Shown: piece by piece, positions 13,491 to 46,434 of the stretch | How positions within the stretch are numbered: position 1 is the stretch's first letter | Layout of the letters: each line of letters starts with the position of its first letter | Assembly: GCA_963971425.1 (NCBI GenBank) | Contig: OZ020514.1 | Span: 25,718,602 to 25,782,601 of the forward strand | DNA: 64,000 nucleotides | Direction: 5' to 3' | Source: Bryoerythrophyllum caledonicum | Taxonomy: Eukaryota; Streptophyta; Bryopsida; Pottiales; Pottiaceae | Notes under the pieces: generated by a model | Seen by the model: only the letters and a program-made list of their open reading frames with translations | Databases searched by the model: none | Told to the model about the DNA's origin: nothing | Position numbers and translations under genes: made by a program

Positions 13491-13493
13491 CTC

Positions 13494-17791: not shown

Positions 17792-20700
17792 CTAAGATTT
17801 TCTTGCAGAGCATTTATCTGACCCATAGAAATTGTCAAAGACATTATCTTCCACAGCCTGGATGTCTAGAAATTTATATACTGCTGGATCAAAACGTTGC
17901 CTTCTATAACGAGTAGTAGGTGGGGAATTTGAAGCCGCTAGTGCATTGGCCATATCCCGCGCGTATACGGGCAAGGAAGGAAAACGTTCGAGACTTTGAG
18001 GTACACAGAAATGACGTCTGCAGTCAAAAGAAGAGTCGATGAAAATCGATGCCGAGATAAAGAAGAAAATTATGACATCAACAACGTTCTTGGTGAAGGT
18101 ACCGTTGAGTTTCACCTACTTACGGCTTTGTTTGTTTGGCATGCATTGGGGGGGTCTCGAAGTCCATGTCGGCAACATCTGGAATAACACTTGGAATGTC
18201 AAAGGGTAGGGTCAATTAGTCAGAGTCGTCGTCAGATACATCCATGTGGTCTTCGACGCGCATCGCAGGGACTTGGACAGTGAGAGGCTTTAGAACGGCC
18301 TCAAATACCTCCGCATCAGCCTCCAGCGCAACGATGTGATGACCATGATCCTTGCAGACTCAAATAGAATTTCTTGGAAAAATATGAGACATTGTTAACA
18401 CAAGCGGAAAAAAAAGGAAAAGCAAATACGGAGGAATTCTTAGGCGCACCTCTTGCGGCACTAATGTCAACAACGACGTCCCCTTCCTTCGTCTGCTGTA
18501 GATAGAATCAACGACGTGTAGAAGTGCAGACCACGTTCCTTTGCTCCACGCCACACCCGATCAGCAGTCCGAGTGAGTGTCTCCTTACTCACAAAATTGA
18601 GAATGGCATTACTCCCAGCAATATCCAATGAGAGCTCCTCAAGTGCCGGATGCTTTTGAAATCGGAAGTTTGATTTGCGGTACGTTTTGACTGGACCTTG
18701 AAGAGAATTAGCACGCACAACCTTCACGACCTTGAACAAGTTGGTGGTCCCTGAAGCCACACCTGCGGATCTTTCTGGCAGTCTGTTAATACCGACCCAC
18801 TCCTTCATGATCTTGAATCCGAACCCTTGAAAGTGGGCCTTGAAGATTTGCATCATCTTGTCTTTATCATCGGAAAAGGTTAAAAACAGACCGCCATCAT
18901 CATGCAAGAAGACGTTGGCAAAACCAAAGAGCATCTTCATCCAGCCTGTGAAGAGCATGTCCCAACTTGGAACTTCATCTGGTAGTAGTGATACATTGGG
19001 CACGAGAAGATTGTCCGATACTTGAGCAAGGACGAGGTCCACCCTTTGCCCCTTCTGAACGACATTCCCTAGCAGTAGACAAGTCTTTCCGTCATTGCAA
19101 TCAGTGACAAAGTCTGAGATCTGGTTCCAAACATCACGCGATATTGACTCGTTCATGATCAGTTGTGTCGACGTTGGGTCTGCCCCACCAGGGTTCGTGT
19201 GAGTCGTGGGGGTGATTTTGAGACTCGGGGTCGGATCGTCAAGTGGCACCCTTGTGGATGTGGAGTGGGAGTGCGTAACAGACACTGTAGGATTAGCAAT
19301 AGGGGACTTGAGAGTCTGGAGAGGCTGGACACATCGAAAAATCAAAGGAGCAGCTTCTGAATCCTCCATTGGTGTAGGCTCCGTCCTAGGCCCTATGGGG
19401 ATCTCCGCCTGCAGCGATGCATCATCCTCCAAAGGCCTAGCATCCGACAAAGTGACACGGGTTGGGGTGGAGACGTCTTGAGAGGCTGTAGCAACTCCAT
19501 GTTCTCGGATGGAGGCCTCGGAAAATCTTGATTCCTCCAATATCTGGAGATTATCCTCCACTTCCAAGTCATCGTCCGCAGCAGACTTGCCTTTAGCCTT
19601 CCTCATCTTAGCACGTCGCTCCTTAGCCTTCTTGTTGGCTTGTAGACATTTTGTGTTTGGGCTCATTGGCTTTGCGCGCTTCTTCTTCTCCTTTGCTGTC
19701 TCAGCCTTCTCCGGCACGTCCTCCTTAACGTCATTCAGAGGACCGTGCACCTCCTTCATGAATAGCTCCTCCTCATGGCAATAGTTCTTGTGACACTCAA
19801 CATACCAATAGCAGTCCTTCCGATGATCCAACGGAATCAACAACAACTGATACAGGGAGTACATGCAAGAGCTGGACAACGATGAGTACGCCGTGTGCAT
19901 CCATAGCGGAAGAGAGGAAATTGCACCTTTCTCAAGGAGTTCATGCTTGACATATCGGTAGGCAAACCGCGTTGCGATATCTCCGCGATCCTTGACGTCC
20001 TCCCATTTCGACAGTCGAGTGAAGGGGGACTCTGCCAGAAAGTGGCTGTTGAACGCATGGTCCCACAAGCGAAGCTTCGACATCGCCAAGTACTCCATCC
20101 AAGATAGTGGTTGCTCCCTCAGTTGGACGTTCATCTCCAGGTTGCCAAGGAGATCATCCATCTTTAGCCCGAGATCCTCCTGAAGTTGTGATAAATGAAC
20201 AGGTATACTTTAAAAATACATGACAATTGCATAATCCAAAATTGGAGCAGTAATTTAACGCACCCATGCATAGAAGACCGCTTGTGCGAGGAACTTCTTC
20301 AGATCTGCTTCAGAGCATGGATACTCAGGAAAATGATTATGTTTTCGCCGAAAGTCCGACTCGTTCCACATCCTCAGCCACATGACCTTGTACTTGGCGG
20401 GAACAGCTGTTGTGGCAACGAGCTGAAGCTACTCAAGGCCCATCTCTACTCGGTCCAAGTTATGCTGGTCGTGATTCTTTCAAACCTGTTCCGTTTACAA
20501 TAGGACACAAAATTAGCTATGCATTGTGCTCAAATATGTTTCAATACAAAAGGAAAAGGACCAAGGTAATAAAGTCCGGAGTCATATCATAAAGAATTAG
20601 TATTTTGACGTCACAAGCACCTAATCACTCGGAGCCGGACTACATAAGAAATGATAATCTCACAGTACTATGATGGTACCCAACGTCGTCGGGGTACCAC

Positions 20701-23586
20701 CCAGCATACCCTCTCGTGACGAGAGGGTATGCTGGGTGGTACCCAGACGACGCCGGGTACCCTCTCGGAATCGGGAGGGGACCCCTCCGAGTGAACCTCT
20801 CTCGATTCCGAGAGGGTACCCGGCGTAGCCCGGGTATCACTCAGCATATTCTCTTGTTACGAGAGGGTATGTTGGTTGGTACCTGGGCTATGCATAGAAT
20901 CCTCTTAAATTGAAGCAAAGACAATGTGAAATAATCACCCTCCAATTCCTGGAGGGTACCCGGCGTCACCCAGATCCCACAAAAACTACCGTCTCGTTAC
21001 GAGAAGGTACTCCCTGTAGTATCCAGGCGACGCCAGGTACCCTCTCGGAACAAGGTGATGCTAAACAGAGCCGTCCACCCGTCTCCAGGAGGGTACTCGG
21101 CGTCGCCAGATACCCTCAAGCGTACCCTCTCGTAACGAGAGGGTACTCCCGATAGTACCAGGGCGACATCGGGTACCCTCTCGGGATCCAAAGAGTTACA
21201 GCTGGAGGAGTCCCCTACCGATTCCGAGAGGGTATCGGTGTAGCCCGGGTACCAACCAACATACCCTCTTGTAACGAGAGGGTATGCCGAGTGATACCCG
21301 GGCTACGCCGGGTACCTTCTCGAAATCGAGAGGGGTCCACCCGGACAAGACCCCTCGCAATTCCAAGAGGGTACCCGGTGTCGCCCGAGTACCACCGGGA
21401 GTACCCTCTCGTTACGAGAGGGTATTCTCAGTGGTACTCGAGCGACACCGGGTACCCTCTCGGAATCGAGAGAGGGACTCGCCTGGGTGGACCCCCTTTG
21501 ATTCCGAGACGGTACCCGGTGTCGCCCGGGTACCACCGAGAGTACCCTCTCGTAACGAGAGGGTACCCCCGGTAATACTCGGGCGACACCGGGTACCCTC
21601 TCGGAATCGAGAGAGGTCCACTTGGAGGGATCCCCCCCCGATTCCGAGAGGGTACCCGGTGTCGTCTGGGTACCACCAATCATAATCTCTCGTTACGAGA
21701 GGATATGCTGGGTGGTACCCAGATGACGCCGGTTACCACCACGGAATCGGAGTGGAGGTTGACCCTATCTAGTCACTGAATTTTTCTTAACTTCTTAGTG
21801 TTTTAAAATGAAGCCTAGTAGTCTGATTAGCAGCCTAATAATGACCTATGGGTCCTAGTCATTTGCAAATATTTAGAAATATTTTTAAACTATATTTATT
21901 TTAAATTACTATCATAGAAGATTAACGGTGGTTTGTGTGGTTACCTCGTTGAGGAAGCTTTCTCCGTTAGCTGGGTTTGCCACTCCAACAAGCTTGCCAA
22001 ACCTCTTCGTCAGCTTATCATGCCTCAGACGGATCTAGCCTTCCATATAATCTTGCATACCTCGTCCAGTCTATTTGTCCTGAGGAGTCTCTACCAGATA
22101 TGTGAGTCGCTCTTTCACTGCGGTTTCGTGTAACTCATCCTGCCAGAACGTGCAAAGCGAGTATGAGCACGAAATAGAAATTTGTTTGATGTAAGAATGT
22201 AAAAACGAGGATTACCTGGAATGGCACTTTCACCATCTAAGATGCAGGAATCGGGTACCACGTAGTGCTTGGCTTCTTCACGCACATTTCATAGCGATGG
22301 GGCGGAATCAAGCCCTTATAGTACTCTAGTGGCCGAGTGCCGTATAAATGCACCTGGTCAAGTTGGTGCATGACATTCGTAACGACATGGTTTGTCTCCT
22401 TTGCCCTAACAAAACAGAGGTCATCAGCTGCAAAAACCAGATAAACTTGCAAATCTGCAACTTTAGAAGGACACTTACTTGTTGACGGCGTGCATCGCGG
22501 ATAGTATTCGTGGATACCCATTCGGTATAATGTCAAGTATAATACAGAACAGCCTCCCGTTCTTCTTGACAAATTCTGTGTCTCAGCTTTGTTCGTGTCA
22601 ATGTACTCTTTCCACGCCTCGTACCGGTGGTTGCCATCATAGATGAACAACATCTTCCCACTCAGATGCTTCAGGTCTTTGTCGTCAGCCAACTCGGATT
22701 TGAATTCTTTGTTCATGGTTTTCCAGTCTGAGGACCAGGAATTCAAAATCGAATCATCAACAGGTCGCTCAATTCCCTCCTTGCCAGTTCCTGCAAGATA
22801 GAAGGAAGTGTCACCATCTCGATAATCATGAGCAAACCCAGCCATCATCCTCTGCTTCTCGATTTTGTGCACTTTCCGAAGCTCGTGCATTGGTATCATG
22901 CGGCACAATAAAATTTGAATATGTGAGAATTTACCCATCGGGAGACGCCACATTAGGTTGATCGCCGCAAATGCATTAGAGTGATACACGATGCCAATTC
23001 GCTTCGTCACTTCCTCTATAGAGGCATCCGGATTGTCGCCGAGGTCGTCGTTTAGGTCAGGCGTAGCCTCCTTCTTCTCCCTCTTCTTGCTCTTGCATTT
23101 GTTCTTTCTCCTCGACCCTCTCTCGGAATCGCTGTCCTAGCTTGAGTCGGATAAGCCTTGCGGGACAAGGGCCTCACCGGCAACGGTTGCATTGCTCTCC
23201 GCCTCCTCTTCTTCCCTGTCGATATCGTCATCTTTGTCGCTCTCTTCTACGTCGCCTTTACATGAATCATCACCTCCCTTGCCAGCCTCATGCTCTTCTT
23301 TGCCCCTACTTTTGCTCATCGTCCCTAAAACAGCTTCCTCCAAGTCGTTTACGCCTCCAAGTCCCGCCTTGTCTCCTTCGCCTCTGTCTCGAACTTCTTC
23401 ATCGTCGACCATGGCCATCGCCAAACCCTCGCCTCCACCTTCGCTCGTGAGCTCCACACCGACTTCACGTGCGTCCTCGTCACCAACAGGCACCCTCTCG
23501 CGGCCTCTAGCTGTGCGCAAAACCGGATCGCCGGGAGCTTCCTCTTCATCCATTTGCGATTCCATCAATTCCAATGTTAGCTACAT
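17792..23586 (-). pseudogene. ParB-like/beta-class methyltransferase-like fusion gene, copy 1 (exon 2 onward)
   Basis: Minus strand, several exons aligned by homology with copy 2 at 29.3-38.2 kb. Exon 23586-22479 has an acidic/Ser-rich leader, then a ParB/sulfiredoxin-like domain ending in IYDGNHRYEAW (about 22621-22650). Exon 22405-22220 ends in a splice donor. Exon about 22135-21942 contains VGVANPANGESFLNE. Exon about 20485-20277 contains MWLRMWNESDFRRKH. A long exon runs from 20179 to about 18450: a helical region, a basic KKKRAK patch, a Ser/Thr/Pro linker, then the methyltransferase-like fold. The motif IV region is VDLVLAQVSDN (about 19012-19044), followed by GGLFLTFSDD and GFKIMKEWVG. 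The motif I strand is GDVVVDISAARG (about 18450) and the next exon (about 18355-18213) has HHIVALEADAEVF. The last exon (about 18040-17810) encodes LPVYARDMANALA. Defects: TAG at 23137, 22237, 22071, 22035 and 20429, and frameshifts near 22535 and 18500. The DPPY-type and FxGxG residues are not conserved. I infer a domesticated or element-borne pseudoenzyme family. Confidence 0.7.
20640..21760. repeat. Array of inverted repeats (TACCCTCTCG family) in an intron
   Basis: About 1.1 kb of alternating palindromic blocks. Typical units are TACCCTCTCGTAACGAGAGG and GGTACCCGGTGTCGCCCGGG, flanked by CTCTCGGAATCGAGAG. Adjacent units are inverted, so the whole array can fold into repeated cruciforms or hairpins. 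It falls between the exon at about 20.3-20.5 kb and the exon at about 21.9-22.1 kb of the minus-strand ParB-methyltransferase copy, so it is intronic. Open frames within it are repeat artefacts. Confidence 0.85.
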
Positions 23587-24175: not shown

Positions 24176-24185
24176 ATCAGACTTA
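24176..24185. repeat. Target site duplication, left copy
   Basis: ATCAGACTTA, identical to 39306-39315, immediately outside the inverted termini. A 10-bp duplication is in the 8-11 bp range typical of Mutator-like (MULE) transposons. Confidence 0.85.
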
Positions 24186-24340
24186 GAGCGACGCTATTTT
24201 GTGAGCCTAGAGTAGTGAGCGGTGAGTAGAGAGCAGAAAAAATATACTCATTTTAGGAAAAATGATTATTTTATTATAGTTTTATTATAAAATTTCCATT
24301 TCTATTTATATTTAGTAAATAAATGGCCCTATTACCGTGT
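24186..24340 (+). repeat. Left terminal inverted repeat
   Basis: Imperfect inverted match to 39190-39305: GCTATT near the tip, GTGAGCGGTGAG, AGAGAGCAG, then CCCTATTACCGTG. The same sequence order recurs at 13494-13600. Confidence 0.7.
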
Positions 24341-24834
24341 AAAGTTTTACATAATAAAAAATAACATACGTCCATTAAAATAGGTTTAGGGTCAAAAAAC
24401 TTAAACTACATGAATCATGATACATAATCAGTAATAGATGAACATAATTGCTAGAAAACAAAATAGAAATTTGTACAATCAAGACATTACACCACTGAAG
24501 AGATAAAACTTTGTAGTGGCCCTTTTAGTCTTACTACATTTTTACTGCACATTGAATATTGATTGCAGTACAAGGATGCCGAACGGCATAAGAAACCTTA
24601 AGGAATAGGATGCCTAAGTAGACCACTCTCAAGAATATGCTTGATCTCGTTAAAGCTAAGACTTGGAGCATGTATAAACACATTAGTTTCGGAGTCTAAT
24701 CCACATATCACAATAAAAATGTAATACAAGTGCTTACAATTTGTCCACTGACCTCGCTTACCTAGAGATTTCCTCATCATCTCTTGAAAAAATAGACATA
24801 AACAAGTGAGGAACTGTCCAACAATGATAGAGTA

Positions 24835-27800
24835 CTATTCAATTTTTGGAGGAGTTCCGAAATCAAACGTAACAACGCAGCCAAGAGCTGGAATAGGTAT
24901 CATGGTCAACCGGCGAAGACGGCCTGTGACCAATAGGGTTGATGCACAAACATTGGCTTGTTTCGATGATGGTGCTTTTGCATTCCTACGAATGTTTTTT
25001 CCAAATCTCCGCTTGGGATGATCATCAAGAAATTCCGGAGAAATATATCCGGACAAATCGACTGGAATTTGCTGACCTTCGAATAATCTCCGTGGTGATA
25101 TTGCAGCACGTGGCTGAAGATGAAATCCTGCATTCTCCAAAGGAAGAATCTCAGAGATAGTTAGATTAGTGCCCATCTTCACTGGCCAAGTCTCTGGCAC
25201 AACTGGTCTTGACACCACCCACTTGCGCTTTGTACCCTTCACGCATCTTTCAATATCATCGTTGCAGAAGAAGAACTGCATACGCTCCATCCGGTTCCTC
25301 TGGTAATTGTCCATCATTCCAGTGTATGTTGGAGCGGCCATGTTCTTACCATCTTGGACAATCTTCGCAACACACTTTTTCTTCGTAATTGCTTGTTGGG
25401 CAAAACATGCTTTCGCCGAGGTCTTAGGTAATCTTGCAATGTGCCACTCAGTCACATCGCATGCAGTTTCTTGGACGGAAGTCACATGCACTTTTGAAGG
25501 TGCAACAATAGTTGTCTCCACATCTTCACGTGCATTTTGTTGATCTTCATCTGTCTCTTCTTGAACTCTAGCTCTTGGTGATGCATCCTCTCGGGAAGTT
25601 GATGATCCGCGCCTAGTTTGAACACGAGGCCGAGAGAAGTTGACCTTGTCGGGTCTGTGGGAGTCGACGTCACAACCGGGAGGAAGATCTAACTTCCGTT
25701 TCAAAGAACCAAATACCTCCTCACCTTCAAGATGTGGTTCCCAAGTACAAATATAGGAAGCTCCAGGTAGTTTGGCCATTGCAGCATGGAGTGCTTTAGG
25801 ATTACCTGATTGTTGAATTGTACGTTGAGCCACTTGTAAAAGGAGTTCCTCCTTGTTAGGACCGGTGCCTGGTCGATCACCATTCAAATATTGGAAGTAG
25901 GCGACCACTTGCATGAAGGCTCGAACATAATCATCCACAGTTGCAACATAGAGATCATTGCCTCGATTCCCAGACTGTTGTAACCACTTATTATGTACGG
26001 TCTCCGCAAGATTGCAAGAAGGCATTTCAGCCAACTCAGGTTTGGAGAGAGGCTGTAAAAAATCACGCATTATACAAAATATTAGAGTAAAACAAAAGAA
26101 TGGATTAAGAACCATCGATTAAAATTTGACAAGTTCAACATTGACGTGGATATCATAAAAAGGATGGGTCAAAATATACCAATTGCATGAACCCGCCCCA
26201 TTGGCGGTAGCAAAAATGCCAAAAGGCTAACCAAAGATCTAGATGGACGATCTCCTCATTTGTTGTTGCTCCAGAAGACAACCACCAAGATCGGATGGCA
26301 TGGTATCTAGCCTCCGCCTCGTCAATGGTTTTTGCATCCTTATATTGCTTGCACATCTGGCGATGTTGTGCTTGGAGATCCGGCCGAATACTTGCTTTTG
26401 TGTGTTTCTCCAAAGATTGGGTCCAATGGAAGAGACATGTCCTTTCTTGATTCTCCATAGGCACCGATGCATCTCCAGTACCATAGATGATGCGAATAGC
26501 ATTCCAATTTGCTTGTGCACTATCCGCCATAAAGCCTTTAAATTTCGGGTTTAGAATGCCATGCCTAGCCATGATGATGTTGAGATTCTTCCAAAAGAGT
26601 ATTTGAGCAGTAGCATCTTCTGACTGCATATCACAGACGGCAATAGTCATCACTCGGCAGTATTGAGTGTCATAAACATGGCAAGCCATGGTAGTTCATC
26701 CTTTGACACGCTTGACGTGGTCATACATGATCCATGCGTTCTCCAAGTCCCCTCCAGATTGCATCCGCTTGACAAGATCTACTCCACTCCCGGAGCCAAC
26801 TTCAGACATTTTGAAAACGAAGACTTTATCGGAGTCCGATCCTTGGCGAGGAAATTTGTTTTCTTGAACAAATGCCCACTTGCTAGATCCGCGAAGCTTA
26901 GTAATACTATCCAAAACTCCAAATCGACGCAAGTACCGAAAGGTGGTGACCTTGTTGCAAATGCTTGGCGAAGTCATGTGCTTGCAAGTATTATGCACTG
27001 GTATAAGTTCCTTGAATGTGAGAGTAGTTTGAGGTGCATCGTCAGAGTGAAGCAATAACTCTCCGACTAAATCCTTGCTTGCCTCCATTATAATGGTAGA
27101 ATTGGTGGTTGAAAGTGTCCTCTCTACTTGCTCTCCTAGAATACTATGTGCCCTATCTGCAAATTTCCTATCAACTCCAATCTTCACAGGATGTGCATGT
27201 GAACCAAGGTGGATACAAGCACGAGTCATATGATCTTTAGTAAGAACATAATAGATTTTTGTAGGACAGATGGCTAAGCAAGAGGGAGGAACTTTACACA
27301 CCTTACAAACGACGGACGAACCTTTGGGATGCTCAGATCCTACGTCAAAGGTGATAGAGCTGAACCCATCCCATTCAACTTCATTTGCCGCTGAGGTTCG
27401 GTGAACTCGTGTCACATAATCACAGTTGACATTAAAACATTTGAGATGCCCCAAACAGGATGATGATCTGAATGTCAGCCCCATGTCGTTCTTGATATTG
27501 GATGTGATGGTTCGTGTCCACGCATGTCCGTCGTGTCGTTTTTCCATCCCACGGAGGAGTCGAGCTTGAGAGTACGTTGTTGAGGCGCCAATAGGGGGAA
27601 GTTCAAACACAACGTCTCCATCAAATGTGGGTGGCAAGAATTCGACCTTCTCTACTCTGATACGGTTGTAATCAATCTTGGTAACTACAGACTTCGACCC
27701 TTTCCTAGCTGATAACGTTTTAAGACAATCAACGACACTCAACGAATTTGAGGCGCGTTGAGGAAGTGGAGGTTTGCCAATAGAACACCGAAATGATTGA

Positions 27801-28339
27801 GAGGGTTGAGAGAGTGGAGAAGAGACAAGTTGGTCAACAGGACGAGGATGAGGAGGTACAGGAGCTGGAGAGTCATCATCGGAGTCATCACTAAGAAGAT
27901 GGATAGGTTCAAGCCCAGGCTCTATCTTTACTGACCGGACAGGAGGTGTGTTGTGCGTGGAAGTAGATGACTGCCTAGGCGTGAGAAATTCAGTAGACCC
28001 ATTAAGGAGAGAGTCAGAGAGACCATATAGTCTAAACCTCCCTGGCGTAAGGCGCCTGAACTTTACACCATCATTCATATAGGAGAGTTGACCAATAGTA
28101 TGTGTGAGCTCACCGGAGGCATTGTCAAAAATCTCTTGATCGATGTGAATGGTCTCTTCCTGGAACTGAAACCTAAGACTCAATTGAGAAGCTGTAACAA
28201 TACAAAACCCTTCATCGCCAATAGGAAATGAGACAGGGATTCCGTGCCCATTCGCATGAATGAAGGCCATCATCAGAAGGAGAATTCTGCAATCTAGTAC
28301 TTGACAAAGAAGAGGCAAATTATGGTGCTTGAAAACCAA
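24835..28339 (-). pseudogene. MULE-like transposase with WRKY-GCM1-like zinc finger
   Basis: Minus strand. The first block (28339-26696, 547 codons) has an N-terminal region with little motif content. An acidic patch after VKIEPGLEPIHLLSD and a finger-like module follow: GHLKCFNVNCDY, VCKVCKVPPSCLAICP, then CIHLGSHAHPV, a Cys-Cys-His-x-His arrangement of WRKY-GCM1 type. After an in-frame TGA (about 26693) the catalytic part continues: HVYDTQYCRVMTIAVCDMQ, then FKGFMADSAQANWNAIR with a likely catalytic Asp in ADSA, then WLAFWHFCYRQWGGF. An intron (about 26165-26070) leads to 26069-24835, with NLAETVHNKWLQ carrying the likely catalytic Glu, VATVDDYVRAF, and a long basic C-terminal tail. The Asp...Asp...Glu pattern with N-x-AE-x-x-HN fits MULE transposases, which are known to carry WRKY-GCM1 fingers. 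The TGA makes this copy defective unless it is read through. Confidence 0.75.
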
Positions 28340-29341
28340 TTGGAGTCATTATAAACGCCATGAATGCCAAGAAGGGTACATTCAAGTCAACGCTGTAAAA
28401 GGTGGAGTGAATTGAACATAATTAATCATTGTAATAAAAATGCATTTAACAAAAGCAAACAGCGGTGCAAATAAATATATATAGCATATGGAAGACGGCG
28501 GAATTCAAGAATAACAAAAAAAATTGTATATTATTGAAGGAGACAACAGAATGCCAAGATAAGTAAAATGTTGTTGATTTTTAGATCAAAGAATAACGAG
28601 ATCTTTAGCATAGGATAAATATTGCCCCTATTGGGCAGTCGATAACGCATTACATTGTAATACTCGGACAATGCTCGGCGAAGTAGTTTTTGAAATATAC
28701 ATGAATCAATGGCTCAAGCATTTAATAGACTAGAATCACAACTATACGATCCAATAACATTAGAAAAGAACCAGACAAGCAAAAAGTGGCATGACAATGC
28801 ATGTAATTAAGTAATGACTAAAGGTCACCAAAATAATAGAGATGGTAGGTGATATGATAATATTTGAACTATCGAATTATAGGTGTTCTAAAAGTCGAGG
28901 AATGGCAATCCTCTCTGTTACATAAAATTCTGTAAAGAAGTCGTCCACCTGCAAGTAAGGTGGGCGATCAATAATAATAGAATGTGAGGGTGAATGTAAG
29001 ATGTTTTGTATTTGAAATAGAGCCAAGGAAGGAGGGGCAAAGATGAAGCAAATGAGGGATTTAGGCACATTACACATGGATACTTGACTGCGGATTTAGC
29101 CACAAAGCATGAGGGCTTGACACCACATTTCATCTCATGTCGGCACAATTCATGTGAGTAGATGCGGCGTGATTAACTTACCTCAATGTAAATTTTTGGA
29201 CTTCTATCTTATCCTCTCGATTATTTGGATTCAAGATAGGTATCCCCAGATTTGTGCTTGACAAACACTCAGCATAGCCATCCTTTCTTCCTTCAACTTG
29301 TAGGAATACTCAAAGGTGAGAGTTTTGATGTCATTTGAGAG
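28340..29341. promoter_or_regulatory. Intergenic region between divergent transposase and ParB-methyltransferase genes
   Basis: About 1 kb, AT-rich, with no supported gene. It separates the starts of two divergent genes in the 15-kb element, so it should hold both promoters. I could not single out a specific TATA or regulatory site with confidence. Confidence 0.4.
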
Positions 29342-31443
29342 TTGCAGATCCAGATGCCAGAGGAGAGAGAGGAGTTGTTAAGTTTGGCAGCTGCACAGAA
29401 GAAGAAACGTAGGAGGCGTGGTTTGCGCTTCTCTAGTACGAAGAAACTAAAGAGGCATAGGATGAGCAAGAGAGTTGCTTCGAGGGTAGACTGTGATGTG
29501 GGGGACACTGCACGCGTGCTATCATTTGACACTGAGAATTGCAGAACCAAGGGCAGTTTATGAACTGTTATCGAAGTGCAAGGAAGCCTGCTATCAGACC
29601 TTGTACGGAGTGGTGGTGTTCGGAGCGGTAATCCTGGAAGCGGTGACTCGGAGGGGCGGAGGCAAGGGATGAAACGAGGAGGTGAGGTGGAGGCAAACGA
29701 GATGGAAGGAGAGCAGCCACTATTAGAGTTAGGTACAAGTGAAGCGCCTTCAAGTCAATCTGAGGAGCATGATGGATTATTGAACGGTCAAAGCAGTGAG
29801 TTTGATGCCTCCAATGAAGAACCAAAGAAGAGAAAGGTAAGATCTGACTTGCTTTGCTTGGAACTTTTTGGACTTTTCATGTGTGTTTAAGAAAGTGAGT
29901 TTAAGATGCATGCTAAGTCTTCTCAGGTCAAATATTAATGATTAGGAATGCTCATGGAATGGTGGCAAGGAATTGGAAGATATTGAGCTCGGTAGGCTTC
30001 GGGGCCGAAGCTTCATTTGGGCAACCGTTGGGCCTTGTCTAAACATATTCTTCGTATGCAAATTGACCAATTTACTCTTGGAGTACATAGTGGTTGGACC
30101 AAAAAGTATTTTTGAAAGTCAAAAGTTTCTATCATCATAAAAGTATTTGATTGTAAATTACTTCCACTATCATTCATCCAACTCATCTCAACCAGATTGG
30201 TCAAATATTTACCAACTTTGGCATTCTGTTGGATGTAAAACATCATTTAGTATATATTAGTATTAGAGAACAAATAAGAGTATAATACCCTCAACATGTG
30301 GGTCACATTTTGATCAGGTTTTGATGCCAATATCAACAACTTCAAATACGTTTGGTCCTTTAGAAGGTAGAATAGTAACTGAGCTTCAGTGATTAGATTT
30401 CATACCATTATTATTGACACAGTTTGTCAAATATCGAACCCATTAATTATATTAATTTTAATGTTATAGTTAAGAATAATAAATTCAAAAGAGAGGGACA
30501 AATAGTTTGTTAGAAATTGAATGGTATTCAGTCCGTGGGGCTAAATTATCATAATGAAGAATAAAAATTGATAAAAAATCAAGTCATAGTCATTCAATTA
30601 AGTCTGTTCAATATATTACAATTTCAATGAGAGACTTTAACTGTAATGTGTACTTTTCCACTAATACATGTCTTCAAGTGTACATTTTCAGTGTACATTT
30701 CCAGTGTACAATGAGAGACTTCAAGTGTACATTTCCACTAATACATGTCTCTCATGTGTTGAATTAAGTAATTTGTAGATTTGAAGTCTAAAATGTCTTT
30801 GTTGTCCAGAATTCTTTGCAACGATGTTCCTGTGTAGTGTAGATGATTATTCTGTGCACAATGTTCCTGTGCAAGTACCTTCACCTGTTTTAGATCTGAA
30901 GGTCTTGCTTTGGAATTGTATTCGTTACAGATCCCAAGTCTGACGGAGTGCCGGCAAAAACGGATTCGCCGGTTCAGTCTTGGTGAGAAGTTTGCAGGAT
31001 TCGTCACAGAGAAGTTTGCTGGATTTGTTGCTGGATTCGTCGTGTATGTGGTGATCGTCGTGTGTGTGTGCTAGATTCGTCGTAGTTGAAACTTGTGTTT
31101 GTTTGCATACTCTGGTTGTGTCCTGGTGCGAACGCTAGATTGATTATGGGTCTCGTTAGGTCTCGAAGTGCGTCGTTAGGTCTCGAAGTGGCAGGTTCCA
31201 ATAGCTTAAATTAATTAGCATATTTGTGAGCTGGTCGGAGGATGATTGATCTTCGAGTGGAGGAGGCTTCGGTGCCGAAGCCTTCTCGATGCGCAGAACA
31301 TAGTATCTCCGCCGACATCCTGGCGACAGGACCTCGACCTCCCAGCGCCGAATTTCAGGCACCATGGGATAGTTTTCATCGGGACAACAAGTGGCGGGAC
31401 ACGCAACAAGACTCTTCGCCGCGGCACACAATGCCGGGACTTG

Positions 31444-31600
31444 CATTGAGACTCGCACCTGGACTTGCATCGAGACTCGCACCTGGACTTGCATCGAGAC
31501 TCGCACCTGGACTTGCAGCAAGACCCGCACCTGGACTTGCATCGAGACTCGCACCTGGACTTGCAGCGAGACTCACACCTGGACACAGTGCCGGGACTTG
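31444..31600. repeat. 24-bp minisatellite
   Basis: Six or so tandem copies of CGCACCTGGACTTGCATCGA plus GACT, with small variants (CATCGAGACT, CAGCAAGACC, CAGCGAGACT). Long open frames on both strands here are produced by the 24-base (3n) periodicity and are not genes. Confidence 0.85.
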
Positions 31601-32204
31601 CATCGAGACTTGCAGCGAGACTCGCAGGGAGACAGTGCCGGGACACTTCGCAGCCGGAAACCCAGTGCCGGAATTGCAGCAGGACACTCCGCAGCGGGAC
31701 ACCCAGGGCCAGGACTCGCATGTAGAAAGTACAAACTCCTTAAGACGATCTCACCAACAGTGCCGACTTCTTCCGTGTAGTTCGTAAGGCCAAGCTAGAA
31801 GAGACCAACTCATCCTACGTTGCAGATCAGTGACAGGCTTCGCACAAACAGAACAGCCAGGCACCCAGCAAAGCGTCAACGAATTTCAAATCATTGAAAG
31901 TTCGTCAAGACACAAATCCCTTCCTGCAAGTAGAAGCTACCGGAATATGCTTGTCTAGACACACCATGGCCTCCAAAACTTGGCTAGAGCGACCACGGAT
32001 GATCCCTTTCTTGCTCGTGCACACAGTTGCGAGAAGCTACTATCTGTCTCCGAAAGTTAGCAGAGAGCAGGAAAAGAGGGTGTAGAAAGTAAGTGGGGCA
32101 CAATCACCATGTGAAGCTGCTCTTTTCAACTCATCTGACAGAATCTTGAGTGCTAAACTTTCCAGCAGCCTAGGCGCTCTCCCAGTTTGCGACTTGCAGT
32201 AAAT

Positions 32205-32298
32205 CAGTGCATCAGTGCATTGCATCATTGCATCAGTGAATTAGTGCATCAGTGCATCAGTCCAGTTCGCGACTAGCAGTGCATCAGTGCAGTGCATC
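32205..32298. repeat. GCATCAGT-type short tandem repeats
   Basis: Repeated GTGCATCA / GCATCAGT words with small variants inside the long first intron of the plus-strand ParB-methyltransferase copy. Confidence 0.6.
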
Positions 32299-32865
32299 AG
32301 ACATCGGTGCTCAAATTTGACGCTTGGGTTTGGTCAATTAGTTCAATTTTGATAATTGTGTTATGTAGGACTTTGGCTGGTGATAGGAAGTTGACAAAAG
32401 AACGATGGAGGCCCCTCTCGGAGAGAATTTGGCACCGAACCCTCCTGTAGTTACGAATGTAAGTCTTCCAGTTGATTACGGTTTTGGATATGTATCTCTC
32501 CTGTATATGCGCTTGGTGCGCTTGATGCGAATTGTTTTGAAAACCTTTCGAGATCGTTCTAGTTGAATCCAGATTCTCTTGTCCTATGTTGGTCACAGGT
32601 GGGAGCCGGGATGACTAAGGATAGAGAGCTGCAGGAGCCTTCGGCCCCAAACCCTTGCTTGGCGACCGAGGTAAGCCTTAATATTCTCTTATGAATTGTG
32701 CACTTTGTCCATACTTTGATTATGTTAATATGGAGGTAAGGTTCTGTATCATGGAGTTGTTAAGTGTTGTTGCTCTCTATGCTCTTTGTGCTCCTGTTTG
32801 ATTTGAAATTATATCAATTAAATTGGATTTTTCATGGAAATTATCATGTGCTCAAGAGATCACGA

Positions 32866-32907
32866 GTTGCCTGATGAGGCTTCGGCACCGAAGCCTCATC
32901 AGGCAAC
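32866..32907. repeat. Perfect 42-bp palindrome with GAGGCTTCGG core
   Basis: Two 20-base arms, the left being GTTGCCTGATGAGGCTTCGG, separated by two bases. Shorter relatives with the core GGCTTCGG-N2-CCGAAGCC lie at about 31266, 29992 and, degenerate, 33872. All fall in the first intron of copy 2. Confidence 0.85.
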
Positions 32908-35900
32908 CTATCATTTCTTCTATGAAATATGTATGAAGTTGATATATCAAGTTTAATTAAGTCCATTTCCTTGGTTCTGTTTGTGCTTAGCTATAATTTT
33001 TGTGTTATTTGTCTTTGGATGCCGCATGAAGAAAGCTTTCGCTTCGAAGATTTTATTTAGGATTTTTATATTGGTTCATAAATCATGTTCTACACTTCTT
33101 CAATTGTCCACTTGAAGTGGTTTAGATTACGTAGCTGGGTTTTAAGACGATTGGCAATTTATATTTGATGAACCGTCATTCTCATGATATGTTGAATTCA
33201 ATGCGGATGCCATGATTGACTTTGCCACGGTTATTTGTAATTTTGTTGCTTTCAACTTGTCCAGCTGTGTCCAACATGTTTTTTAAAATATTATATTTGT
33301 ATGAGTGTATTACAACAGCTTAAATTAATTAGCATTTAACTTCAATTTAAAATCGCTTGATAATATTTGGAGATCAGTTTAAGATGCTCCTTAGAAAAAC
33401 AAATTGTTTAACCGTAGCTTAAGTTTTTAGATTTCTCTCCATGAGTTATATGCTTTATTCATAAATGAATTTTATAAACAATTTAAGGTCTGATATGGTT
33501 TATGATATGGTAATTTAAGGTTTATGATATGGTAATTTTTCTGGGTGTTGGTGTTGTGCTATGCTATTTATGCTCAGAGTTTGAAATGGGTCGGTGACAT
33601 GTCAGAATATTTTGATAACTTAATAACATAATATTTTCATCTTTGTGCTTTAGAATAGAGAAAATTCAGCTAATTGTCAATCTCTAAACGCGATATTACT
33701 ATGGATTTTGCAACTATGGAAATATTTACATATATAGTTCATATTGTCTTTAAAATGAGAGTGGAACGAGATTCACATGTAGGCATGGGATACAATCTTT
33801 AGTAACTACCTTCCATAGATTGTAATAAGAAAAAAAAATCTCTTGTAGGTAATGGCACATATAACGATGAGGCTTTTGTACCAAAGCCTCCTTGACAGCC
33901 ATCCTAGGATATTCTTGACCGCAATCATTCCTAGGTTTAGCATGTTTTATGTGATGGACATGTTTAATATCTGGTAATTCATCAAATGTGCTTATGATTG
34001 TGACTCTCGTTTGTTTCAACTATGGAGGAATTTGCCGTTGTCCTAATCAAATAATTGAGTCTTGAGTTTATAGACCCAATTTGAATATGGATATCCTATT
34101 TCATGCCCCATGTTTAATGTGCCGCATGTGTTAACCCTGACTATTTTGATATGTATTGAGACCACTCTACTTTAATGATATGTGTGTTACCTTGATTTGT
34201 TTTCTTGAAAGCTTTGGCATTATCTAGTATTGCTATGATTTAGTGAATTCTTTAAAAAAGGGGATACAGGTCTCTGATTCGGCGGATTCAGTTGCCGACT
34301 CCGACGACTGCACAACAGTGAAGTGTCCACCGAATTGCCACGATGCTAAAGAAGGGGAGCGATTGCGGCGCAAGTTGGAGAAGCGACACTATCACTCCGT
34401 TTTAAGTAGCATGCGATCTTTGGATTCAGGGTTACGAATCCCATTATGCAGGCTCTTACCTTTGCCACGAGTTAGACCAGTTCAAGAGGTGGATGTCCGA
34501 CGCTTGGGGATTCTTTTTGAAGATTGTGATGGATATGATGATGCAGATCGTGCTCTATACGTGTCCATCTACAACGATAAGGAGACCACTACTGACGTTG
34601 GAGACGAGCATCGGACTTCTTAGGGTCATCATTGGCATGATGCAAATGACCGGTTTGACGCCCAGCTTGAGTATTCACCTTTATACGCTCATTTGAGAGG
34701 TAAGATGTTCTATGTTTGGGATGGCAATCACAGATTCTCCGCTTGGTGGCGCAAAATCAACAACGATCACTCTGAGGAGGCTCGCTGGCATTTCTCAGTC
34801 ATCTGCATCCTCTTGGACCCCCGAGGCCGCATTGGACCTCTTCTGAATGCAATGAACGAGGTTAACTGGTATGTCTTTGAAATTTCTATTCATACAAATT
34901 CCATTATTTCATTTATTTTCTTTAACCACTCTCAAATTAGGTCCACTCAAAATGATCATGTCAAGACTAGTCTCCCTGCTCGATTGACACGGATGCAATA
35001 TTTTGGAGCACTTTCATTGGAGGACTTTCGTGACTTGTTGACTCCCACTGAGTACAAAACTTGTGGAAAAATAAAAAAGAGTAGGCCGACATGGTTCCCT
35101 CTCACGGTTGATGTCTTCATCTCCTTTTTGAATCGGGTGCGTTTTCTTTTATCACATTTGAGATTTCAAGATTATTTCACTCAATTTGAAAAAATACTTT
35201 CGTTGCTGATAATAGAAATTCTCTCCCCAGGCTGACATATCCTGTGCTTCTGATGAGGCTGTCCGTGAGTACAATGATCGTACTCAGGAGAAGGATAGGA
35301 CTGCAGAGGCCGTGTGGGGGGTCATGCAGGCTGCTTCAGAAAAAGCCATTAAAGTCATTAAGCAGAAGGACTTTCTGAAGTACTTGACTGTAGCGAATCC
35401 TAGAAATGGGGAGGATTTCTTCAATCAGGTTAGAGCATTACATCTCTATTTCTACTTTCATGTCATTTACATATACTATCTTTCATGACTTTTCATATTT
35501 TATTTATTCTCATATATCATATTTATTTTTTATGGGCAACAGATCAATTTGCACTTTAGTACAAATTCCAAGCCGGAGATGACAATTGAGAAGCTTCAAA
35601 AGATTGCAACATCTGTGGTGGAGCCAGAATTCAAAGCCAAATGGCTTCAGTGGTGGAATTTAGGCACTATGCGGCGAGCCGCCTACCGCTTCCTTCCTGC
35701 CAATTTTAAGGAGGCAAACCTTGATACTTGGCTCAACAAAGCCACATTTTGGGCTCAGGTAATATGATTTCCTTGCATTCATTCTTCTACTTCTGTAACA
35801 TCATTTAATTCCACTCCTTGATTGTATATCTTCATTGCAGATCGAAGACCGTGTTGTCAAGCAGTTCAATGAAATTTCTGGTGATGAATTGGGTAATATT

Positions 35901-38699
35901 GATTGGAGTGCATCTAGAGGCATCAAAAAGCCCTCAGATTTTGTGGAGTCTTAGAGAATTTTTCTTCGGAACAAAGCGTTCCAAACTTTTCTCCACCCAA
36001 ATGCTACCCGTCCTTTTATGAAGGGATCCATATTTGATGATCATCCTGGAGCTCAATTGGCAAAGAGACGGGTGTTATATTGGTATTTTTTGAACCTTAA
36101 CTTATATATTTATAATTGTCTCCTTTTACTACATTGAATTTTTTGAGCTAACTAAATATTTTTCTTTTGCCAGATATATGATGCGGGAGCTCATTACTAA
36201 ACATGCCATTCCATCTCAATCTCTCCCACCCTATATTGAAGCTTGGATCAAGCTTTCCTCCGACCTTTGCATGTATACTCCAATGCAGCAAAAGAGGTAC
36301 GCAGCCAATCACCTTCAAGCTGGGTGTTGGTACCTTGATTGTTCACCAAACTATACTCCGGACGATGAGGTACACATTAGGAATAGCCTTGATGTTGCTT
36401 CTGTGTCTCCTATTGGAGCTACCGACGTTGTCGACATTCTTGAGGAAGACTCCATTCAACCAATTCATGTTCGTGGCAACGGTTCTTCTCAGAAGAAGAA
36501 ACCTTTGACCAAAGCCCAGAAGGAGGCGGTAGACAAGGTTGCACAAGTGAAGGAGGTAGGAGATGCCACTACTACTGCGGCCTCTAGTCTTCCTACATTC
36601 TCAGTATTACCTAGCAATATCACTGCCCCAACAAGTGACCAACATGGTATGTTACCACCCTCTTCATCTCAGTTCCCTACCACTTCAAGTGTTGCATAGG
36701 CCACGGAGGAGCTCTTTGGGCAACGGAAAGTCCGCCAACTGCCCTCTACTTCCACTTCTCTTGCACAGATACATCCTTTGGAGGTGATGTTGGAAAATGC
36801 GTCCCTTTTTGCGGTAATGGAGACTCTTGGAAGGCTAGCAGGCCCTGATCAACTATGGGAGAAGCTTCATAAATATATTACCCAGGTATTTTTTCATATT
36901 TGTGACCTATTTTGGTTCTTTAGACTATTCATCAGATTATTCATCATTTCATCTCATTTCTTATTGTTTCATGCATGTTGGTTCTGGTCGAACACGTCGT
37001 GTGTCTTCTCCACATTGTAAGAACACCGGTCTGGATCTCATCATCACCGACATTCCAGAGAATCTGCCAGTGCCTGGCATTTTAACGACCCCTTTGACAA
37101 TTCCACAATGGAATTCACGACGTGAACGGTATGTAGAGTCCATTTTTGAGTTTGGTGATGCATATTTGCATGATGACGCCGCCATTCTTCTTTTCCACTG
37201 CGATGATCGTGCACTCTGCTCCGAAGTTGAAGAAGTTGCGGAGCAGTATAGCTTCCACCTTTGTAAAGATTGGTGGGGAATTAATGATATTGCCTTGGCA
37301 TCTCCAAAGTTCCCCTCGACCACGGTACAATATATTTTCCAATTCCATTGTCTCTTTTGGAATTTTTTTTATCATTTGTGATTTTCAATGGATTGGGTCT
37401 ATTGCAGTCGCATCGTTTTTGGATCCAGTTAGTTGTCCGTGATGAACCCATTCAATCACAATTCTCTATCATTGAGAATCGCGAGCTTTCAGATGTGGGT
37501 CTCGAAGTTGAGCAGACTAACACTTTTTTCAATCTCACCACCGTCAAGAACCAGCTCATGCGAGGGAGTTTGCCCTGGCGTGGTGCACGGGAAAAAGATC
37601 CCCTTTTCATGCAAGTCTTGAGTGAGTCCTTCACGAAACCTGGTGACATCGTGTTGGATTGGAAGGCCTCCACTGGTACCTTTCATGAACTCTTTATTTA
37701 TTTTTGCAATTTGATTTCTTGTTAACCATTATCATATGATTATTTATATGTTTTCTAATTCTTGCAGGTGCCTCTATTTGTGCCTGCCAAGCCACTGGTA
37801 GGCACATTGTTGCATTTGAAGATGATCTGGATATCTTCACTACAATCCTACAGCCTTTGGTTGCTAAGCCTTCTCCTCCTCCGGCGATTGCCAGGAAGGC
37901 TCTCAAGAAGGCTAGCCAACCTCTTTTAGAGGAGCGCCCATCAAAGAAGCCAAAACGCAATCGATTTGCCTGTGCGTAAGTTTTTTTTTATTTATCCATT
38001 CTAAAATATTTGTAATCCATATACTCTACTTGTTAGCGGATCACTAACTGTATGTTATGCAAAGCTTTTCGTTCGAGCCTTCCAGAGGCTTTCAAGCTTC
38101 CAAGCTATGCCGAGGATATGGCTATTGCATATGCACACACTCCTTCTCCAGCTCCTTCTCCTCCCCGCCGGAACAATTTATGGATGTTGAGGCTTCGGAA
38201 GGGGATATTAGTGAGGGATACAGTAGTTAGGAAGGGTCTTCACTTGTAGCCCGTAATTTTACTAGTATTTGTATTTTCAGTGTCATTGACTTGTGAGTCC
38301 GACATGCATATTTTTTATGTGCAATTTGGCTAACAATCATTAGATGTGTTTCTATATATTTATTTCATATATTATCTATTTTGTTTATGGCCTACTACTA
38401 TTCATAGTTTTATTTGTGAGCCATAAATAGTGACTAATGTATTAAATAGAATGAAGTAAATAAAATGGTAGAATTTATGAGAATTTAGCCTTAGTTAGAC
38501 AATTAGATGTGTGTAAATGATTAGCAAAGATATTTCACTCAAATTTGAATTTTTAGTTTAGCAAGGATTGTATTTATCAAAGTCATTTTGTATTAGTGAG
38601 TAACGGTGACTTATCTAGAGAAATGATATGGATAGAAGTTGTACTGGTTATCACTAACCAGTATTAAAGCTTGAGGTTTCTCATTGCAAAAAACATGTT

Positions 38700-39010
38700 T
38701 TTAAATAATTGAAAATAAAAAAATATAGACAAAGAAGGAGAAGAAAAAGAAAAAGAAGATAAAATTTTAAACAAGAAAAAATAGAAGAAGAAAAAAAGGT
38801 AAAAAAATTATTAAAAATAAAAAAAGAAAAAGAAAATATAAAAGAAGAAAAGAAGAAAATGAAGAAGAGAAAAAATGGAAAAGAAGAAGAAGAAGAGAAT
38901 AAATTTAAAAGAAAATGATAAGAAAATAATGGAAAGAGAAAAAGAAAAAAAAAGAAATGAAGAAAAAAAACAAAGAAGAAGAAAAAGAAGATGAATGGAG
39001 ATGAAGAACA
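38700..39010. repeat. A/G purine-rich low-complexity tract
   Basis: About 300 bases of AAG/GAA/AAA-type purine sequence on the plus strand, downstream of the plus-strand gene and just inside the right end of the 15-kb element. The Phe-rich minus-strand frame is an artefact of the tract. Confidence 0.8.
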
Positions 39011-39189
39011 TCAATAACAATAAAAAACAAAATCAAATAAAATCAAATCCTCCTACCGTTTTGTTTGCTCTTTTTTTCTGAAAATTTCAATACAACAAAT
39101 ATAATGTCAAAATGCCCCACTCACTTTAAACAAATCCCACGGTTATAGAACCTCTAATTACTAAAAAAATCCTTCCAACCTCTGATAAT

Positions 39190-39305
39190 CCACGGTAATA
39201 AATCCCTAAAATCTAAATTTTTGGAACTTTCATCTCATCGTCGCTTAAAATTCTCTGCTCACCGCTCACAGCTCACCGCTCTACGCACACATAATAGCAT
39301 TCCCT
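39190..39305 (-). repeat. Right terminal inverted repeat
   Basis: The inverted counterpart of 24186-24340. Reading inward from 39305: AGGGAATGCTATTATGTGTG, GAGCGGTGAGC, GTGAGCGGTGAGCAGAG, then ATTACCGTGG at 39191-39200 (complement). Confidence 0.7.
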
Positions 39306-39315
39306 ATCAGACTTA
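39306..39315. repeat. Target site duplication, right copy
   Basis: ATCAGACTTA, identical to 24176-24185, directly outside the right terminus. Bases beyond it differ from those beyond the left copy, as expected for a true duplication. Confidence 0.85.
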
Positions 39316-40483: not shown

Positions 40484-43400
40484 TCACTTGCATCCATCAT
40501 AATCGCCATCTTTTGCAATGGCATCCTCTTCCGATGCACCTGCCCCTGTCTTCGGTAGAGGATGTCTGTCCAAACTTTTGGTGGCAAGAGGAGTTTTCTG
40601 TATTTGCTCACCAATTAATGAAGTGATGCTCTCCTTAACCTCTGGGTAATCTCGAGTTTTAACCGGATGGTTGTGTGTCCCCAGGTGAATACATGCACGG
40701 GTGATATTGTGCTTACTCGACACGTAGTAAACTATAGCAGGACACAACGCAAGACACGAAGGGGGCTTGCAGCAAATTTTACAAACCAAAGTTGAGCCCG
40801 AAGGTGGTACCTGATTCGGAGCAAAAGGATGTTGCGTAGTGCCTTTGAAGTCCGTTTCATTAAATGGCGCCGTCCAGTGGTTTAGGCGGAGGTACTCGCA
40901 ATCCTCGTTACTGCAACGAAGATGTCCAACGCACTTGGAAGTCCTGAAGTTGAGGCCATCTTCGTTGGTGATATTTGTGGTGATAGTCTTTGTCCAAACG
41001 TGCCCGTCGTATCTTTTGTCCATGCCATGAATGTTCTTTGCCTGAGTAGATGCTGATGAAATGCCTGCAGGGGGTAATTCAAAAATAACATTGTCGTTGA
41101 ATTTGTGAGGAAGGTATGGAACTTGCTCACGGCGGATCTTATTATAGTCTAATTGTTTCAAGGGATTCTTACTACCTGGTTGGGTTCGCAACTCTCTCAG
41201 GTAAGAAATAACACTCATAATAGTCGAGTCTGTGGTACGCTTAGGAGGACAGGACATCGGCGTACGAGATACTGGGGCGCAAGACGAAGGGGTGTTAGAC
41301 GAAGGATCGTGCGACATAGGAGTGGTATTCCAGGGAGGGCATGACATAGGGGTATCTGTCATGATTGGACAATTCCTCAGAGAAGGGGACTCGTTATCGG
41401 ATGACAACAAAATTACGCTTTCCGTCCCAGGTTCAATCTTAACTCTTACTCTAGGTGGAGGCGGGGTGTGCATACTAGACGACGATGACCTGGGAGGCAT
41501 AGGAGCGTAGGAAGGTTCCTTGAGACGCCGAAGCAATCTCGCAAGGGAGGAGATAGTGTAATTAGAGTCTCATGGCCACAAGTTAGTGGAGTAGTGAGCA
41601 TAGGCACCATCTCCATGACCGTGCGTGACCATATCGGTGACGTTCTTTGGGAACTGACCCAAGGGTGATGTGAGTTTGATAGAAACTTGCATACAAGGAA
41701 TAATTGTCTTGGTTGTATCCATTTTATCGTGGATAATACAAAGAATATCGCCCTTTTGCCGCTTAGACTCCTCTCTCCAGGTATGGTACACACGCCTACA
41801 CGAAGCTTGGAGGTTGCAGTGGGTTTGTTTTTGCTTGACGAACGAATTATATTCGGCGGAACCCTTAAGTGATCTGTTGATGTACTGCAATAGAGTGTCA
41901 CAGAGGGTGCACTTTGCAAATGAGCTCCCAACGGGTTTAACCGCAACATTGTTGAAGTGCTCCCTCCTCATTCTACTAAGAGCGGATTGCAAAACCACGG
42001 GCAACCCGCATTGTAGATTCGTCTGCAAATGAGTAAAAACATTGAGTGCGTCAGGTGAGTGCCCAGTGAGAATTGATCTTAAATCAGATTGAGGATAACC
42101 ACAGAATGTGAGGACTGTAAGATTGTAGCATACCCTTGGCAATCGTAGGATCCTACCATGACCTAGATGTACAGAGCAAAGATAGAGGGTCTTTCAGGAT
42201 ATTATCATAACCATGAGGTGCTTAAAGTACACGTGAATGCAGATAAGTGGTTCATGTGGTGTACTATGTAGAGTAATACCTCTGTAGCATCAGCCTAGAT
42301 CTTCTTCCAACTATGTTCAGAGGGCAGAAACTTTAGAGTGTCCATTCGGCCTGGTACTGTCAACCTCATCTGATTGGGCATGTGATCAATAGTCTCATTG
42401 ATGATAGCCGTAATCGTACCAAGTTCTTGCACGGTTCTAAGGCAAGGTCGTTTGACGTCTTTGTTCCCGTGCGTAGAGGAAACAATGCCTTTCTTGTACT
42501 GGTCCATATATTCGTAAAACGTTGTTTTTTGGTATGCCATGGATTTTGTACCGCGCTGTAGCGCAGATATCCTGACCTAATAAAGTGACATACTTTCGTT
42601 TCCGATTGTTGCCCATATAGCGTAATTGTCCACCTACAGACCTTGCATAATCCCGGCGTTCGTCAAAGTCCTTCAGCCAAAACTTCTGGCGAATGAAAAG
42701 GGTATCATGGGGCGTGATTAAGCGCACGCATTTGTCAGAATAACATGATTGCAAACTAACTGACGTCTCATCTCTTCTGGCATAGTCTTCTTAGCGAACG
42801 CGTTTAGCTTCTCCTCAGTCCACTTCTTGCGACGAACAAACCGGCATGGTGCTTTTGGGCGGCCACCAAGGTGCGCATTTGCGTCCGTTGCTTGAAGAAG
42901 ACGATTGAAATGGATGAGCGTATTGCTAAGACTTTGTCCTCCTTCGAATGCATAGTCGGCAATGGGCCACCTCCAATGACTCATGATGTCACTAGGATCT
43001 CCGATGAAAACGTCGAATATTATGACGCCAATGTTCCCCTCCCCCAAAGTACTGTTTTTGAACGGCTCATCTGGACAGACGCAATTAATGCCACCAGAGG
43101 CCATAAGATCCCCATCACCGTCAAAGCGCTTGACAACCTTCCCCACCCACTCTGCCTGACGTACAAAAGGAGGAGTGCTTGTGGACCCAAAAGTTTCGCC
43201 AAAGTCCGAAGTCAGGACAAGGCTTGATGTCTCCCAAAGAATTGTTCTACCAATCGATTCAGCTAAGACAGAGATGCCCTCTTGCATTGGATGAATGAGT
43301 AGACTTTGCGCCATTGCATATATTTCAACAGGTCAAAGAAGAACCAATTCCGCGAACGTGAGATCAATGCCGACGCCAAGCCAACACCCAGTAGGAACGG

Positions 43401-46430: not shown

Positions 46431-46434
46431 AAGG

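Follow-up and report, generated by a model that had tools for sequence, protein, structure and literature searches.

Positions 24186-39305 of the 64,000-nucleotide stretch of Bryoerythrophyllum caledonicum DNA analysed here (contig OZ020514.1; the whole stretch is hereafter called the window) are a real DNA transposon of 15,120 bp that belongs to a recently mobile family. It harbours two genes on opposite strands, both starting near the centre of the element and ending at its two tips: a transposase gene that runs to the left end, and a large spliced gene for a ParB-methyltransferase-like protein (hereafter the partner) that runs to the right end. This layout had been proposed in an earlier note made from the letters alone, and exon mapping together with homology to an intact copy (L025) bears it out. 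The explanation that we favour, an autonomous two-gene cut-and-paste transposon of the Mutator-like element (MULE)/IS256 kind whose partner would be a DNA-binding, non-methylating helper, is given a probability of about 65% as a whole, and its structural part is close to certain.

Element ends and copies in the source genome

The following features delimit the element:

24186..39305, no strand: transposon, 15,120 bp
24176..24185, no strand: target-site duplication, left copy, ATCAGACTTA
39306..39315, no strand: target-site duplication, right copy, ATCAGACTTA
24193..24240, + strand: left terminal inverted repeat, containing GTGAGC units, aligned by blastn to the right end at 79% over 48 bp
39251..39298, - strand: right terminal inverted repeat with GTGAGC units (blastn match to the left end)
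24330..24339, + strand: subterminal motif TATTACCGTG, 145 bp from the left tip
39191..39200, - strand: subterminal motif TATTACCGTG, 106 bp from the right tip

The perfect 10-bp direct repeat that the earlier note had placed outside both ends is exactly there, and the 10-mer has just these two occurrences on the + strand of the window, each directly flanking one element end. The termini are inverted and diverged, as had also been claimed: they pair in register at 38 of 52 bases, compared with a maximum of 28 among 20,000 random window pairs, and blastn aligns them as imperfect inverted repeats (E=2.4e-6). Further inward, the subterminal motif has only three exact copies on the two strands of the window, at 13583, 24330 and 39191, each reading inward from just inside one of three termini (the third terminus is that of an outer element described below). 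In a scan of the inward-reading strand of element ends, its degenerate form TAT[TA]ACC[GA]TG was found 98-227 bp from the tip at all 11 right ends and at 10 of the 11 left ends examined; none was found on either strand of element interiors beyond 500 bp. The number of GTGAGC units at the right end is 3-4 in family A, to which the element in the window and its close copies belong, and 5, 7 and 17 in the diverged copies C10d, C14d and C11d, respectively.

The source genome (437 Mb) was searched with the first 300 bp of the element, and the best 40 of 143 candidate left ends were scored, so that the counts are lower bounds: at least 21 left ends at 95-100% identity (the window included) and at least 19 at 71-78%. 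For 10 of the 20 other close copies, 20 kb of sequence was fetched. The right end lies 14.4-17.7 kb from the left end in eight of these ten; the right tip is missing in one of the eight, and among the other seven the 10-bp duplication is perfect in six and carries a single mismatch in one. Within the 20 kb, the transposase is present in 10 of 10 copies, ParB exons in nine and methyltransferase exons in eight, with both genes at least partly present in nine; copy L019 has the transposase and the first-partner-exon region only. The partner gene lies inside the termini on the strand opposite to the transposase in the window and in the seven fetched family-A copies with both complete tips, and the same arrangement is found in L011 (right tip cut), in C11d and C14d and, for the ParB exons only, in C10d. 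The check proposed in the earlier note, a genome search for recurrent full-length two-gene copies with 9-10 bp duplications, therefore came out in favour of the element, the duplications being of 10 bp. Three copies, L023, L025 and L027 (contigs C1, C9 and C8), share 99.88-99.92% identity across 14,371 bp.

The pairing of the two genes was also counted genome-wide. In a search with the methyltransferase exon, the best 150 of 1,649 candidates were scored, and among the 150 places listed at least 49 exons are 86-100% identical. For 18 of the 21 listed close left ends, one of these 49 close exons lies within 17 kb in the right orientation, versus about 0.001 expected per end (the count was confined to close ends and close exons, with 19 diverged left ends and 101 less similar exons set aside). 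Together with the nine of ten fetched copies, this strongly supports the proposal that the ParB-methyltransferase-like gene is a regular partner of the transposase. The spacing from left end to exon is 12,040-12,041 bp in 10 copies, which suggests a recent burst. In the other direction, a listed close left end lies within 60 kb of only 20 of the 49 listed close exons; the remaining exons may belong to chimeras or to left ends beyond those listed. A transposase homologue (P0008) and a methyltransferase-exon homologue (P0148) both come from contigs of length 26,949; this hint that the genes occur together was set aside as a coincidence of lengths.

A side observation concerns three diverged left ends. 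L029 (C15:596700-601500) and L030-L031 (C713:9450-21010) are palindromes, perfect or nearly so, of a diverged left half plus its flanks, one of them with a run of N in the middle, and they are taken as inverted duplications or assembly artefacts, since the palindromes span the flanks and one holds the N run. For the same reason, the paired left ends C15:596818/601342 and C713:9593/20871 were rejected as elements bounded by two left ends.

The transposase and its partner gene

Both genes of the window copy carry in-frame stops, which makes this copy a fossil. Their parts are as follows:

24835..28270, - strand: transposase gene, disrupted here by in-frame stops, one intron near 26.1 kb; ATG at 28270, running to the left end
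29669..29836, + strand: first partner exon, ending in a nuclear localization signal (PKKRK, with V across the junction); by homology to intact L025, coordinates by arithmetic
34270..34868, + strand: ParB-like exon with the DGNHR motif; in-frame stop at 34621
34941..36885, + strand: five middle exons (34941-35136, 35231-35428, 35543-35758, 35841-36082, 36174-36885); stops at 35952, 36081 (split codon) and 36697
36977..37324, + strand: methyltransferase exon, motif IV being DIPEN
37408..38230, + strand: last methyltransferase exons (37408-37675 and 37768-37975) and C-terminal exon (about 38063-38230), by homology to L025

In L025 the transposase, once spliced, is open for 1,181 amino acids, and the transposase exons of L023 and L027 have the same lone stop as L025, located in the intron. 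Its predicted structure contains an RNase H-like DDE/D core of the IS256/MULE kind, preceded on the N-terminal side by a WRKY-GCM1-type zinc finger (moderate scores); such fingers are common, albeit not universal, in the MULE/Mutator-IS256 superfamily. In a fold search with the predicted structure, the best match of the core among the folds listed is to PDB entries 6xgw, 6xgx and 6xg8, which we take to be ISCth4, a bacterial insertion sequence of the IS256 family; ISCth4 is not known to have a partner gene, GCM finger or ubiquitin-like domain. The 10-bp target-site duplication falls within the 8-11 bp of the MULE/Mutator-IS256 superfamily. A C-terminal CSC...CKH was spotted by eye in the intact protein and has no Pfam match; SWIM-type CxCx(n)CxH fingers are a common C-terminal feature of plant MULEs. 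Pfam MULE profiles did not match the transposase exons of the window (E up to 1), nor eight homologues or the 1,181-residue protein (E up to 10, where HMMER filters discard most weak matches). Assignment of the protein as an IS256/MULE-like transposase with a GCM-type finger is thus supported by structure prediction, and the MULE identity claimed earlier stands on the predicted fold and finger while lacking a Pfam match. No related locus was returned by scans of a viral contig collection with the transposase, with alignment A3 and with alignment A1, and of a genome contig collection with A3.

The partner gene of L025 consists of 11 exons with 10 of 10 introns of the GT-AG type, and its spliced frame is open for 1,107 amino acids; the same frame is open in L023 and L027, which differ from L025 by three residues and none, respectively. 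The intact protein begins with an acidic stretch, followed by a stretch resembling a nuclear signal (PKKRKV, spanning the first exon junction), a ParB-like region, a middle region and a C-terminal DNA-methyltransferase domain. In the ParB-like region the GNH motif is nearly invariant, mostly as DGNHR or EGNHR. The C-terminal domain is of the N4/N6 type: PF01555 matches family A at E=1.8e-4 when the whole protein is used and at 9.7e-5 with the domain by itself, both short of the Pfam cut-off, and PHROG methyltransferase families match family A at E=8.5e-8 and a diverged family B (C11d and C14d) at 1.3e-5. As judged from these profile matches, the methyltransferase identity of the C-terminal half of the domain is firm.

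The canonical motif IV of N4/N6 DNA methyltransferases is (D/N/S)PP(Y/F/W). Among the 14 aligned rows that cover it, 13 read DIPEN and one NIPEN; both family-B copies read DCQEN, and a further ParB-methyltransferase gene outside the element (the outer gene, described below) reads QVSDN. The PP and the aromatic residue are absent in every sequence seen, across three lineages. The lack of an aromatic residue argues against an ordinary DNA methyltransferase, and this part of the partner is probably inactive. When solved structures were searched by sequence, nothing significant was found with the ParB alignment (best E 0.13) or the methyltransferase alignment (best E 0.28). A fold search with the methyltransferase model returned acetyltransferases and others; it carries no weight and was rejected as evidence either way.

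Separate histories of the two halves, and the surrounding element

Family B has the same architecture as family A, with elements of 14,159 and 13,840 bp and perfect 10-bp duplications in two of two; among the three fetched diverged copies (C10d, C11d and C14d), ParB exons are present in three and methyltransferase exons in two. The transposases of families A and B are 83% identical, with a synonymous divergence (dS) of 0.66 and a ratio of nonsynonymous to synonymous divergence (dN/dS) of 0.14, whereas their partners are 38-39% identical and saturated at synonymous sites. At the nucleotide level (blastn, E 1e-4), the two families match at 82% over bases 1-4106, that is, from the left tip to just beyond the transposase ATG; after base 4106 no match is found up to the terminal 77 bp of the right tip, within which the outermost 54 bp are 94% identical. 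A single history cannot yield both similar transposase halves and saturated partner halves. Between A and B, the left half, consisting of the tip and the transposase, thus has a history different from that of the right half, which comprises the central region and the partner gene.

The reverse pairing is likely to occur as well. At two sampled loci (C7:3.52-3.54 Mb and C3:8.51-8.52 Mb), which are mutually 98.6% identical over 2,948 bp, the methyltransferase exons are 95% identical to those of the window, yet the transposase in the expected place is just 66% identical with saturated synonymous sites. The spacing from transposase to methyltransferase at these loci (11,963 and 11,976 bp, versus 11,390 in L025) is compatible with one element each, so that an A-type partner would accompany a diverged transposase. 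The halves hence appear to have been reshuffled between relatives. As for constraint on the partner, dN/dS of the ParB exons is 0.28 between C14d and C10d (347 codons) and 0.33-0.52 between L025 and five decayed family-A copies.

Around the element, the window holds three further related features:

13483..13669, + strand: left terminus of a second, related (outer) element (nhmmer and alignment versus shuffles)
18273..23580, - strand: second, diverged ParB-methyltransferase gene (the outer gene), about 25-30% identical, outside the element
40487..41569, - strand: second transposase, a fragment with about 43% identity, lying outside the element

These are the remains of a second, older element around 24186-39305, which is located between the outer gene and the outer transposase fragment. 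The 3' end of the outer gene faces the terminus at 13483-13669, and the transposase fragment is on the same strand as this gene. The right end of the outer element was searched for within the window and not found; the outer gene had no match in phage records and none among solved structures by sequence. Between its exons, at 20671-21750, a unit rich in CGAGAGGGTACC is repeated in both direct and inverted orientation, forming a complex array. Elsewhere in the window are a tandem array of 53-55 bp units (46383-47384), degenerate TTTAGGG-like repeats that resemble plant telomeres (45123-45447) and open reading frames that by eye resemble Ty3-like retrotransposon sequences for RNase H and integrase (11082-12382).

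The partner as a proposed helper and its relation to known systems

In the explanation favoured here, the transposase would cut and insert the element, recognizing the terminal repeats and perhaps the subterminal motif. The partner, ParB-like, bearing a nuclear signal and fused to a methyltransferase domain without the usual catalytic motif, would act as a DNA-binding helper, with the ends or non-coding DNA of its own element as the most likely targets; its binding may counter host silencing, or may aid assembly or targeting of the transposition complex. The partner is retained and spliced, carries a nuclear signal, and varies together with the central region and non-coding DNA, as would be expected of a DNA-binding helper with its own targets. 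On the sequence, a non-methylating helper is modestly favoured over other roles, and a specifically anti-silencing one, which is drawn by analogy, is a tentative suggestion.

A number of observations weigh against this explanation. The ParB assignment depends on the GNH motif together with profile matches that are weak: phrog_1033 (ParB) is matched by six of 25 members (best E=0.056; family B 0.11), DUF1015 by two of 25 (best E 0.015), and the family-A ParB region has no PHROG match at all (E 10). PF01555 matches family B at only E=0.051, the predicted methyltransferase structure is poor (alignment A5, pLDDT 43), and a degenerate motif IV is no proof of inactivity. Purifying selection is not demonstrated for the family-A methyltransferase exons, for which dN/dS is 0.22-1.11 with few changes, and dN/dS is 1.39, on very few changes, for the ParB exons of the near-identical C11d and C14d. 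The fetched family-B copies carry one or two stops each. Finally, two close left ends have their nearest listed close exon 24.6 kb (L021) and 38.9 kb away, and one of the 21 has none of the 49 close exons within 60 kb.

Were the partner instead an active N4-cytosine or N6-adenine DNA methyltransferase, guided by its ParB-like region and marking or protecting element DNA, its matches to methyltransferase profiles in two diverged lineages would be accounted for, and so would the retention of an acidic residue (in IVAFEDD and IVALEKD) at what we take, by motif assignment, to be the S-adenosylmethionine-ribose position. The Ectocarpus authors propose such a marking or protecting role for ParB-methyltransferase accessory proteins (PMC12477816). 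Motif IV argues against it, being without PP and an aromatic residue in all sequences seen ([DN]IPEN in 14 of 14 covering rows, DCQEN and QVSDN), and on this ground the marking of element DNA by methylation, raised in the earlier note, loses support. Motif I also seems to lack its first glycine when judged against what we presume to be the canonical form. We regard an active enzyme as unlikely. Far less probable is that the gene is passenger DNA captured once: Pack-MULE-type transposons do carry pieces of host genes, but here one fixed arrangement recurs (9 of 10 fetched family-A copies have ParB exons and 8 of 10 methyltransferase exons, and for the fetched diverged copies the numbers are 3 of 3 and 2 of 3), the youngest copies have an open 11-exon frame, the ParB exons of C14d and C10d show the low dN/dS given above, and diverged transposase lineages are each accompanied by such a gene.

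A more specific form of the helper explanation would make the partner an anti-silencing factor whose binding sites are variable tandem repeats and non-coding DNA within its own family, by analogy with the VANC protein of VANDAL elements, which we take to be Mutator-like transposons. VANC is a sequence-specific anti-silencing protein that removes methylation from its own family, and its targets are often tandem repeats that vary between related elements (PMC5735166). The number of terminal GTGAGC units varies between copies here, and partner and adjoining non-coding DNA differ between A and B while transposase and right tip are alike; the units, however, sit at the tips, where the transposase would bind. 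Such a factor is possible, at odds well short of even. As to the two halves, gene conversion homogenizing the transposase half between A and B would yield the same pattern as exchange of whole right halves (left halves alike at 82%, right halves unlike). It is less easily squared with the reverse pairing that seems to occur at two loci, where transposases with saturated synonymous sites are found about 12 kb away from methyltransferase exons that share 95% identity with those of the window, and we hold it to be rather improbable; both readings are recombination, in either direction.

Among known systems, MuDR of maize is a two-gene autonomous MULE (mudrA and mudrB) whose genes converge from long terminal repeats. 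The present element is likewise autonomous with two genes, but these run outward from the centre, its repeats are short, and its partner is not known to be related to the MuDR genes. ISCth4 is likened to it by the transposase core, its best structural match. With VANDAL and VANC it shares a putative helper gene beside the transposase and a helper specificity that would differ between nearly related families; the partner here is derived from a ParB-methyltransferase, and the likeness is an analogy of behaviour. No MULE with a ParB or methyltransferase partner was found in open-licence PMC full text, which agrees with the earlier note, whose author knew of none described. ParB-methyltransferase genes have nonetheless been reported in Sola1, green-algal and red-algal transposons, with a methyltransferase domain predicted to produce N4-methylcytosine or N6-methyladenine (PMC12477816). 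In that article, the Sola1 accessory protein has ParB-like and N4/N6 methyltransferase domains as here (1,104 amino acids there, 1,107 here), and its gene likewise lies on the strand opposite to the transposase within a large transposon. Compared by description, the host is Sola1 there and MULE/IS256-like here; set against that system, motif IV is degenerate here in three lineages and the halves have different histories. With such genes in print for other transposons, the kind is known, while what looks new is that the host is MULE-like, that the active site is degenerate and that the halves appear reshuffled.

A broader reading, which we put forward as speculative and doubtful, is a modular MULE superfamily in which right halves (central promoter region, ParB-pseudo-methyltransferase gene and non-coding targets) would be swapped among transposase lineages. 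The dead methyltransferase would then act sequence-specifically in anti-silencing or targeting, as a counterpart of VANC assembled from parts of bacterial type. As the youngest copies are 99.9% identical with open genes, the role of the helper, be it in methylation, anti-silencing or targeting, is directly testable. If the favoured explanation is true, ParB-methyltransferase helper genes would have joined quite different transposon superfamilies (Sola1 and MULE-like), such genes could spread while losing the usual catalytic motif, and helper and transposase modules would recombine.

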